Assembly (NCBI GenBank): GCA_944325625.1
Contig: CALVAP010000015.1
Location: 36,412 to 100,411 of the forward strand
DNA length: 64,000 nucleotides
DNA from: Candidatus Gastranaerophilales bacterium
Lineage (GTDB): Bacteria > Cyanobacteriota > Vampirovibrionia > Gastranaerophilales > Gastranaerophilaceae
Direction: 5' to 3'
Shown here piece after piece: positions 7,992 to 44,926 of this stretch. The notes beneath the pieces are model-generated. The model made no database searches. It saw nothing but the letters and a program-made list of their open reading frames with translations, and was not told the origin of the DNA. The translations under genes and the position numbers were made by a program. How positions within the stretch are numbered: the stretch's first letter is position 1; each line of letters begins with the position of its first letter.

Positions 7992-8791
7992 TTAATAGTT
8001 CATCGCCCCTTCTTCAAGCACCCGACCGGTGCATTTTGCTGCTTCGCCCCCCCAAATGTTTTTTCCATCTCTATTAACAATCTCAGTGGTACAGAGTGGT
8101 GAACTCGGGTTATTGTTCCAGTAGTCGGGATCATAGCCCTGATATTTAGCATATAATTTTGAGCCATAAGGCATAACAGTACCTTGCGCTACACCGTTTT
8201 GGTTATATGCTGCTATCTCAAATTCAAAAATATCTCTACCCCACTGATTAGGACCTTTTTTGCCGTTGATATCAGTTGTAATAAAGGGACCATGATATCC
8301 CCACGCCATTCCGTCCGCAGTAACAAAAACTTGGGACTCTGTACTTAGTATTGGACCTCCGTTTTCATTTAACTCAACACAATCTTCCCAGTTGTTGCTA
8401 TTACAAGTTTTAACAACTTTCATATATTTATTTATAATAATGGGCCAATTTTTTACCGAATCATCATAGTGATCTAGGTTATCTATTAATTGTTCTTCAT
8501 CATGTATAGCCAAAGATATGACATTAGAAACAGTAGAATAGGCTTTTTTAAGTCCAGTAACATAAGGATGTTTTTGATACTTAGAAACAAGAGTAGGGAT
8601 AGTCATAGCAGCAATGACACCGATAATGGTTAAAGTGATAAGAGTTTCAGCCAAGGTAAAAGCACGCTTAGTGTGATGCCCAAAAAGCCTAAAAGCCTTA
8701 TTAGAAGCTAACTTCTGGGGAGGGGGGGGGCGCTTAGCGGCACAGTTTGTGCGATTTCGACATTTTTAACTATGTAGCTGTCAAAATTCAT
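7992..8791 (-). CDS. Type IV prepilin-like protein, out of frame with its start at a C9 tract
   Basis: The body has a prepilin signal, KRAFTLAETLITLTIIGVI, with F+1, E+5 and a hydrophobic helix, then about 200 residues rich in Asn/Trp/Gly and four or five Cys, typical of a surface pseudopilin. In this frame the only start near it is a TTG inside the signal (8654), with no ribosome-binding site. Upstream at 8791 an ATG follows a strong TAGGAGG and opens a 27-codon frame (MNFDSYIVKNVEIAQ...) that stops at 8708. A run of nine Cs on the coding strand (8722-8730) lies between. One extra C, or two fewer, would join the leader to the prepilin through PPPQKLASNKAFRLFGHHTKR. The gene is therefore OFF as sequenced: phase variation, a mutation or a homopolymer error. 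Confidence 0.7.
8722..8730 (-). repeat. Poly-C (plus-strand G9) tract in the prepilin leader
   Basis: Nine consecutive Gs on the plus strand, followed after one base by four more on its other side, in a genome of roughly one-third GC. The tract lies inside the coding leader of the prepilin and sets its frame, which is the arrangement of contingency loci that vary by slipped-strand mispairing. Confidence 0.8.
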
Positions 8792-8834
8792 AAAATATTG
8801 CCTCCTATAATTATGTACATATCCAACATATATG

Positions 8835-8863
8835 ATTTTACAAAATTATGGAATAAATTGCAA
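8835..8863 (-). promoter_or_regulatory. Promoter for the prepilin gene
   Basis: On the minus strand, TTGCAA (8863-8858), a 17-base spacer and TAAAAT (8840-8835). The expected start near 8828 lies about 37 bases before the ATG at 8791, with TAGGAGG between. This supports 8791, not 8654, as the true start. Confidence 0.55.
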
Positions 8864-8992: not shown

Positions 8993-9256
8993 CTAAATTT
9001 TCATATCGAAGTTTGGTTTTTCTGTAACGTCACGCATAATTGCCCCGAGGTTATATGCTTGGCGGTTATACTGATTGATTTGCTCTGTGACATCGCCATT
9101 AAATACCTGCTCATTTTTTTCAAGATAATCAAAAATTGGTGTCCAAAGGCTGGAAACCTGATTTTCGAGAGTTTTTTGAGCCTCTTGAAGTGTTCTTGTA
9201 GGAACTTTTACATTAAGACCAAAAGGCAGGTTAAATAGTCCGTCTGTCACTTTCAT
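8993..9256 (-). CDS. Unknown small protein, 87 aa
   Basis: Not recognised. A soluble protein with an amphipathic helical middle (residues 20-70, rich in Gln, Glu and Asn) and no signal or membrane segment. GGAG lies only two bases before the first ATG but eight bases before the GTG at codon 3, so translation may start at that GTG. It has its own terminator at 8911. The plus-strand frame over the same bases has no protein-like composition. Confidence 0.6.
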   Translation of the reverse strand: MKVTDGLFNLPFGLNVKVPTRTLQEAQKTLENQVSSLWTPIFDYLEKNEQVFNGDVTEQINQYNRQAYNLGAIMRDVTEKPNFDMKI

Positions 9257-43798: not shown

Positions 43799-44926
43799 AT
43801 GGACGAGTTTAAAATAATACCGTTTTTAAGAAGTGTTGTAAAACAGGGAGTTTCAGATATTCATTTAAGAGTTGATGAGTATCCCGTAGTAAGAAAGGAT
43901 GGAAAAATCCTAAAGATTACAAACCTTGCCAAAATGACGGACGATGATTTGGAAAATACATTAGCTGAGCTTTTACCCGGAATATTAAAAAGTAGAGCGG
44001 ATCAGGTTTTTGACCTTGATTTTGCGTATGAGATAAAAGGTGTTTCCCGCTTTAGGGTAAATATGTCAAGACAATTGGGCAAGCTAGCACTGGTTATTCG
44101 TACTATTCCGTACGAAATTCCCAAAATCAAAGAGTTGGGGCTGCCTGTCTCAATAGAACAGTTTTCGGCGTTGAATAACGGTATTGTTCTTGTTACTGGT
44201 CCCACAGGTAGCGGTAAGTCTACAACTCTTGCTTCGCTTATTGAAAGTATCAATACTTCTATGCAAAAACACATAATTACAATAGAAGATCCAATTGAGT
44301 TCCTTTATACTAATAAAAAATGTATTATATCTCAAAGGCAGGTGGAAGTTGATACAACATCTTTTCCCGATGGTGTAAAATATGCCCTAAGACAAGACCC
44401 CGATGTAATTCTAATTGGGGAAATCAGAGACCGAGAAACCATGTCTGCAGCCTTAAAAGCAGCAGAAACAGGACATTTGGTTTATGCAACAATGCATACA
44501 AATGATGCTGTTCAGACGGTTAATCGTATTGTCAATATTTACGAACCTCAAGATAGAGAATTTATTAGAAAGCAACTATCAGAAACGCTTAGAGCAACAG
44601 TATCACAGCGATTACTTCCGCGTAAAGATACTGAGGGAAGAATTCCTGCTTGTGAGGTTTTGGTTGTTACTCCGACTGTGAAAGATTTTATAGCCAAAGA
44701 TAACTTGGAAGAAGTTTATGACCTTGTTAAAAAGGGTTCATTTAACGATATGATTACGATGAATATGTCTATATATGAACTTTATGTTAGAGGATATATT
44801 TCTGAGGCTACCGCCCTTTCTGCTACCGATAACAAGAATGAATTGAAGCAATATATGAGAGGTGCTTACCATGGTGCCAATTCTAAGGCGTTGAAATTAA
44901 AGGAAGAACTTAGCAGTGAACAGTAG
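43799..44926 (+). CDS. pilT: Twitching-motility ATPase PilT
   Basis: Retraction ATPase of type IV pili, a hexameric secretion-type ATPase at the inner membrane. It has VSDIHLRVDEYPV near residue 20, Walker A GPTGSGKSTTL near 133, the Asp box RQDPDVILIGEIRDRETM near 200, Walker B context and the His box GHLVYATMHTNDA. A PilT-type AIRNLIRE motif is not evident at the C terminus, which is somewhat divergent. Length is 375 residues. AAGAGGAG precedes the ATG. Its last 11 bases overlap recO. Confidence 0.9.
   Translation: MDEFKIIPFLRSVVKQGVSDIHLRVDEYPVVRKDGKILKITNLAKMTDDDLENTLAELLPGILKSRADQVFDLDFAYEIKGVSRFRVNMSRQLGKLALVIRTIPYEIPKIKELGLPVSIEQFSALNNGIVLVTGPTGSGKSTTLASLIESINTSMQKHIITIEDPIEFLYTNKKCIISQRQVEVDTTSFPDGVKYALRQDPDVILIGEIRDRETMSAALKAAETGHLVYATMHTNDAVQTVNRIVNIYEPQDREFIRKQLSETLRATVSQRLLPRKDTEGRIPACEVLVVTPTVKDFIAKDNLEEVYDLVKKGSFNDMITMNMSIYELYVRGYISEATALSATDNKNELKQYMRGAYHGANSKALKLKEELSSEQ

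Follow-up and report, generated by a model that had tools for sequence, protein, structure and literature searches.

The 64,000-nucleotide stretch of Candidatus Gastranaerophilales DNA analyzed here (hereafter, the window) carries a predicted type IV prepilin gene whose start codon and body are put in different frames by a run of nine cytosines in the leader. This gene is probably turned ON and OFF by slipped-strand mispairing at the run, a reading to which we assign a probability of roughly 0.87. The gene is one of 14 prepilin genes with such a run in the source genome (hereafter, G000; 1.70 Mb in 17 contigs, 99.7% complete), and the best reading of these sequences is a repeat-based contingency system that would serve mainly prepilins and be mostly OFF. 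The recurrence of the arrangement in 14 genes, together with a public protein (P0009) that matches a sister locus and has the leader in frame, supports the phase-variable prepilin proposed in the preliminary description of this DNA as the best available interpretation.

Organization of the window gene

The features of the locus are collected in Table 1. The distance from the ATG to the prepilin motif is 131 nt (2 mod 3) in the window gene, compared to 135 nt (0 mod 3) in sister copies devoid of a tract, and the arithmetic agrees with the earlier claim that the leader is one base out of the prepilin frame. The ATG opens a leader of 20 residues before the run (MNFDSYIVKNVEIAQTVPLS), and the prepilin frame, which is not that of the ATG, runs uninterrupted via KRAFTLAETLITL to position 7992, comprising a basic distal leader that ends in KRA ahead of FTLAETLITL, and a body that, counted from the Phe of FTLAE, is 222 residues long. 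A change in run length shifts the frame between this plausible start and the body. The reported break does fall at the C9 run; the tract is impure, however, reading C9-T-C4 (8730-8717), whereas sisters sharing its leader carry pure runs of C11-C13.

Table 1. Predicted features of the window prepilin locus (window coordinates).
Feature	Position	Strand	Basis or remark
Putative sigma-70-type promoter, TTGCAA-17-TAAAAT	8835..8863	-	prediction; hexamers recur in module copies
Shine-Dalgarno (SD) sequence, TAGGAGG	8801..8807	-	sequence
Leader ORF, ATG 8791-8789, 27 aa	8708..8791	-	early stop from frame break at the C run
C9 homopolymer, presumed slippery tract	8722..8730	-	sequence
T + C4 after C9, impure tract tail	8717..8721	-	sequence
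N-terminal methylation motif KRA-FTLAETLITL.., type IV prepilin, PF07963	8601..8669	-	profile match
Prepilin body and distal leader, intact open frame	7992..8720	-	out of frame with ATG 8791
Terminator-like hairpin 3' of the prepilin stop codon	7943..7974	-	sequence

The assignment to the prepilins relies on a match of the body to N_methyl (PF07963) above the cut-off (E 3.6e-5) and on the methylation motif FTLAE with Glu5 after the cleavage site; residue -1 of this site is Ala in the window gene and Gly in many relatives. TIGR02532 scored above its cut-off in four of the five paralogues submitted, these being the four that have the leader, and a Foldseek comparison with the PDB returned no match at E<=0.001. 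Across the genome, PF07963 has 46 matches at E up to 0.1, 35 of them above the cut-off, and the assembly machinery is represented by one A24 prepilin peptidase match (PF01478) and five T2SSE ATPases (PF00437) above the cut-off.

G/C tracts in the source genome

Within the window, the C9 tract is the sole C or G run of at least 8, a result equalled in 6 of 100 shuffles, and the excess inside the window alone is modest. Genome-wide, the excess is strong: we found 16 distinct G/C runs of at least 9 (lengths 9-13), 13 of which reach at least 11, compared to 1.05 and 0.04, respectively, expected when a first-order Markov model of the window is extrapolated to the genome length. Fourteen of the 16 runs precede a prepilin motif of the FTLAE type by 55-106 nt. 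The corresponding genes, among which the window run is the shortest, represent 14 of the 46 N_methyl matches (11 above the PF07963 cut-off and 3 below) and are poly-C on the coding strand in 12 cases and poly-G in two (C4:160550 and C7:68132). No prepilin was found near the remaining two runs (C4:178889 and C16:36641), the former of which is located between two convergent ORFs. A G/C homopolymer of at least 9 in or by a reading frame is the threshold for contingency loci in PMC5953494, a length reached by the C9 of the window and by the runs of the 14 prepilin genes. The leader of one copy (L041:5828-5849) bears a compound run, C12-A10.

A shared promoter-SD-leader module

The promoter-leader DNA of the window matches 13 places in G000 at 77-100% identity, the same 13 that are obtained by selecting module copies with GGAGGCAATAYTTTATG, and the same DNA search over 38 other genomes yielded a single weak match of 42 nt. 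Ten of the 13 copies carry C9-C13, one an interrupted C6-T-C5 run (C4:219978) and two no run (C4:19444 and C1:184455). The promoter postulated upstream of the window gene fared unevenly: with 9 of 12 hexamer matches, the site constitutes no evidence on its own, because seven such sites were observed in the region versus 5.5 in shuffles, but the hexamer pattern TTGNNN-17-TANNNT occurs at identical spacing from the SD in all 13 copies.

Mean pairwise DNA identity among the copies is 0.84-0.93 from approximately 76 nt before to approximately 195 nt after the ATG, and falls further into the bodies to 0.37-0.80 (mostly 0.55-0.72), suggesting a common 5' switch ahead of diverse bodies. The median dN/dS of these bodies (0.28; 74 of 78 pairs usable, 13 copies) points to coding sequences that are under purifying selection.

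In both tract-less paralogues, the identical SD-ATG and leader are read in frame straight into the prepilin. This supports the start at ATG 8791 assigned in the preliminary description and indicates that the leader belongs to the prepilin protein, whose frame in the tract copies is broken at the run; these two homologues without the tract do not start elsewhere, as had been considered there, and the suggested comparison with intact homologues places the same leader in frame in C4:19444, C1:184455 and P0009. It is scarcely probable that the leader ORF instead encodes a regulatory peptide, acting as an attenuator or translational coupler tuned by the tract, with the prepilin being started separately. 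Such an arrangement is suggested by a locus of genome G001 (L087), where an upstream ORF contains the tract and, in its in-frame form, runs into the start of a prepilin that has a separate SD-ATG. Leader and prepilin make up one frame, however, in both tract-less copies of G000 and in the public proteins P0009 and P0003, and the module copy sequences showed no second SD-ATG in the interval from tract to motif.

Near-identical leaders attached to diverse bodies, and two tract-less copies in frame, could also be read as decaying pseudogenes, or as silent donors to the two in-frame copies in the style of pilS and pilE. We consider this very unlikely, given that promoter-like hexamers and SD have been kept in 13 of 13 copies, that the bodies are open and show the dN/dS ratio given above, and that in-frame forms of tract genes are known (P0003, P0009 and 13 ON genes in genomes G008 and G023).

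In-frame and truncated forms among public proteins

P0009, a public protein of 256 residues whose longest contig measures 3181 bases, agrees at 213 of 213 residues with the body of the G000 copy C1:162933, which lies on a 294,028-base contig and carries an out-of-frame C13. The leader of P0009 is in frame (..VPLSCPPPQKLASN.. / MNFDSYIVKNVEIAQTVPLSCPPPQKLASN..), and the C1:162933 locus therefore probably exists in the ON state elsewhere, as judged at the protein level. A further in-frame form, P0003, is 80% identical to the body of C13:119873. These two proteins and two tract-less forms make up four of the 18 closest protein clusters (P0001-P0018); the other 14 begin inside the body, at MAETL or MTIPT. 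Such gene calls begin within the signal helix, and are probably misannotations caused by an out-of-frame leader.

Among the public proteins searched, none represents the window's own locus in frame, the sole protein more than 68% identical to the window body (P0001) being one of those that begin inside the body. The protein search for in-frame leaders returned four proteins and missed the leader-sharing P0002, so its silence on others is uninformative. A scan of genome contigs brought up only two distant loci, in an uncultured-bacterium bin and a goat-colon bin, and for a second body type no in-frame tract form was present among the four closest proteins.

Tract prepilins in other genomes

Runs of at least 10 are held by 40 of the 59 genomes searched, and their number correlates positively with that of prepilin matches (Spearman 0.61 over 39 genomes, with overlapping run matches and prepilin counts that are lower bounds). 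Genomes G009 and G014, with at least 79 and at least 80 prepilin matches, yet have two C10 matches each; the design is thus not universal in the family. Many prepilins of relatives are devoid of a run: when 40 best-hit loci from eight genera were sampled without selection, the body was recognized by script in 32, only six of which have a run of at least 9 within 220 nt. The leaders vary by genus, being poly-Pro or poly-Gly, so the switch has either been rebuilt or diverged past DNA similarity.

In G008, a genome of another genus, 35 of 37 runs of at least 9 fall in prepilin leaders, and one of the remaining two lies at a contig end. For G023, runs were sampled from listed places of at least 10, with shorter runs hence under-seen; a one-strand view had placed these tracts mostly outside prepilins, which was ruled out when both strands revealed poly-G leaders. 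G021 holds at least 15 tracts, 10 of them without a body within 330 nt; six of these 10 are cut by contig ends and are like the others in the sequence adjacent to the run. Loci L210-L223 of the same genome present G14-G20 runs in a different leader module common to them (GGAGGAATGGTTATG..CACTTTC-Gn); several of these runs lie at contig ends, which suggests that assemblies may break at such sites and may underestimate the number of prepilins.

Four tracts of G001, a genome of the same genus as G000, precede a second SD-ATG, and their states are not simple ON or OFF. In its loci L087, L075, L076 and L084, a small ORF upstream of the prepilin (MHLNFNT..CPPP or similar) contains the C11-C13 tract; in L087, where the tract is in frame, this ORF reaches a TGA overlapping the start of the prepilin, which has a separate SD-ATG; phase-variable translational coupling is a possible reading of this layout. 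Distal leaders in L089-L128 (G023) and L213-L223 (G021) are often lengthened by stretches recurring between genes (..CYNSDV.., ..PYGRGR..), as if intergenic repeats had been inserted between tract and prepilin motif.

We hold at even odds a broader reading for much of the family: a dedicated switchboard of G/C-tract prepilins, with a dozen to tens of them separately switched per genome, leaders that arose anew in each genus (poly-Pro or poly-Gly), a usual tract length one base off that makes OFF the default, and a pilus composition that would be nearly private to each cell.

Frame states and the surplus of OFF genes

Frame states were assigned by a script that chose the start codon, giving preference to an ATG preceded by the best SD. 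In G000, none of the 14 tract genes is in frame (0 of 14 ON), which against an expectation of one third gives p 0.0075, a rough value as the copies are related. One of them, L041 (motif 4021), has an alternative in-frame ATG without SD, and out-of-frame lengths lead to a stop after 27-34 residues in module copies. Among other genomes, 5 of 34 scored genes are ON in G008 (one further start being unclear), 8 of 45 in G023 (out of 52 runs; a run of 10 is OFF in 35 of 36 cases and a run of 11 is ON in 7 of 8), 0 of 5 in G021 and 0 of 9 at the loci of G001, G005, G012 and G009, some of which share the upstream-ORF layout of G001. Over all groups, 13 of 107 scored tract genes are ON, a surplus of OFF states that may reflect a default-OFF design, population consensus or frameshifting.

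Assembly or sequencing error, in which each run would have been read with one base too few or too many and the prepilins would all be in frame, had been named in the preliminary description as the main alternative. The uniform OFF state of the 14 G000 genes is compatible with such an error, as is G023, where nearly every run of 10 falls one base short of the frame (OFF2: 29 G10, 2 C10), resembling systematic base loss. We nonetheless regard it as highly improbable. The interrupted copy C4:219978 is likewise out of frame although its short runs (C6-T-C5) are little error-prone; the 13 G000 tract genes that have an SD-ATG are off in both phases, seven by one and six by the other; ON and OFF lengths are found side by side in G008 and in G023; P0009 is in frame; and 14 of the 18 closest protein clusters begin inside the body. 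Error would also leave unexplained why 14 of 16 runs in G000 lie in prepilin leaders.

Alternatively, the runs could be programmed slip sites, on which ribosome or RNA polymerase would slip at poly-C or poly-G to provide a steady low level of prepilin while DNA length stays constant. CCC-C and GGG-G are shift-prone codon contexts, as this explanation would have it, and it would account for tract copies that are mostly out of frame yet conserved. A programmed site should nevertheless favor a single phase, whereas the G000 genes are off by one or by two (although G023 is nearly of one phase), and sister lengths vary from C9 to C13, with states that, as seen in proteins, vary between assemblies. 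We deem it unlikely, and slippage of the ribosome or polymerase may be an addition to DNA slippage rather than a substitute.

Proposed mechanism and relationship to known systems

Under slipped-strand mispairing, replication slippage would add or remove single bases in the run and so turn the prepilin frame ON or OFF. An in-frame length would yield a precursor that the one prepilin peptidase of G000 would cut before the Phe of FTLAE, discarding the run along with the leader, and the type IV pilus ATPases would help to assemble the resulting pilin. Because the run lies within the removed part, gain or loss of three bases would keep the frame without altering the mature pilin, and the run is thus proposed to act as a pure ON/OFF switch. 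Each tract copy would switch independently; with most copies OFF, a cell would show few switchable pilins at once, over a base of tract-less ones, and the population would retain many pilin types, each cell displaying few. The window run itself may slip rarely, being impure and shorter than the runs of the other 13 genes.

The Opa genes of Neisseria have their own promoters, a CTCTT repeat in the leader-coding region and separate switching. The 13 module copies, with a promoter-like site each, a leader repeat and variable bodies, follow a comparable plan, the likeness being one of design only. Several scattered, repeat-switched copies are common to both, the Opa repeat being given as CTTCT in PMC5953494. 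Opa proteins, however, are outer-membrane barrels switched by a pentamer repeat, while the G000 genes encode predicted type IV prepilins with poly-C or poly-G. The pilE/pilS system consists of promoterless silent copies and one expression locus. The module copies do not conform to such cassettes, for promoter-like hexamers and an SD are present in 13 of 13. Pilin diversity is shared with pilE/pilS, and C tracts are reported in some pilS alleles (PMC5953494), but there a single expression locus recombines with silent donors, whereas in G000 a promoter-like site and an SD precede every module copy. A G/C homopolymer within the frame of a pilus gene also switches Neisseria pilC1/pilC2 ON and OFF (PMC5953494). 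Unlike the genes described here, pilC encodes a pilus-associated protein rather than a prepilin, is present in one or two copies and lacks a multi-copy leader module. In Campylobacter, the targets of G/C tracts are mainly surface-glycan genes. Many hypermutable G/C homopolymers are a feature shared with that genus (PMC8355987), whereas 14 of the 16 G000 tracts sit in prepilin leaders.

The slippage mechanism is already known from Neisseria pilC and Opa, but its use across multiple prepilins was absent from the papers covered: no such system was found in the literature on phase variation or type IV pili of Gastranaerophilales/Melainabacteria, preprints and most subscription journals being outside the scope of the search. 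Meningococcus has a mean of 15.4 poly-G tracts per genome (PMC5953494). If our reading is right, this lineage, presumably one of uncultured gut bacteria, has as many long G/C tracts per genome (16 in G000 and 37 in G008), which in these two genomes are devoted almost wholly to prepilins. It would provide a reason for holding dozens of prepilins and a means by which cells could vary their adhesion or their phage receptors, would explain why many of these prepilins are called without their leader in databases, and would turn genomes known from assemblies alone into a testable system.

Further features of the window

Upstream of the prepilin unit, the minus strand holds an 87-aa ORF (8993-9256) with no Pfam match below E 0.09, which is followed by a terminator-like hairpin (8940-8920). 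The window also encodes a T2SSE-type ATPase at 44123-44785 (PF00437, E 1e-47).
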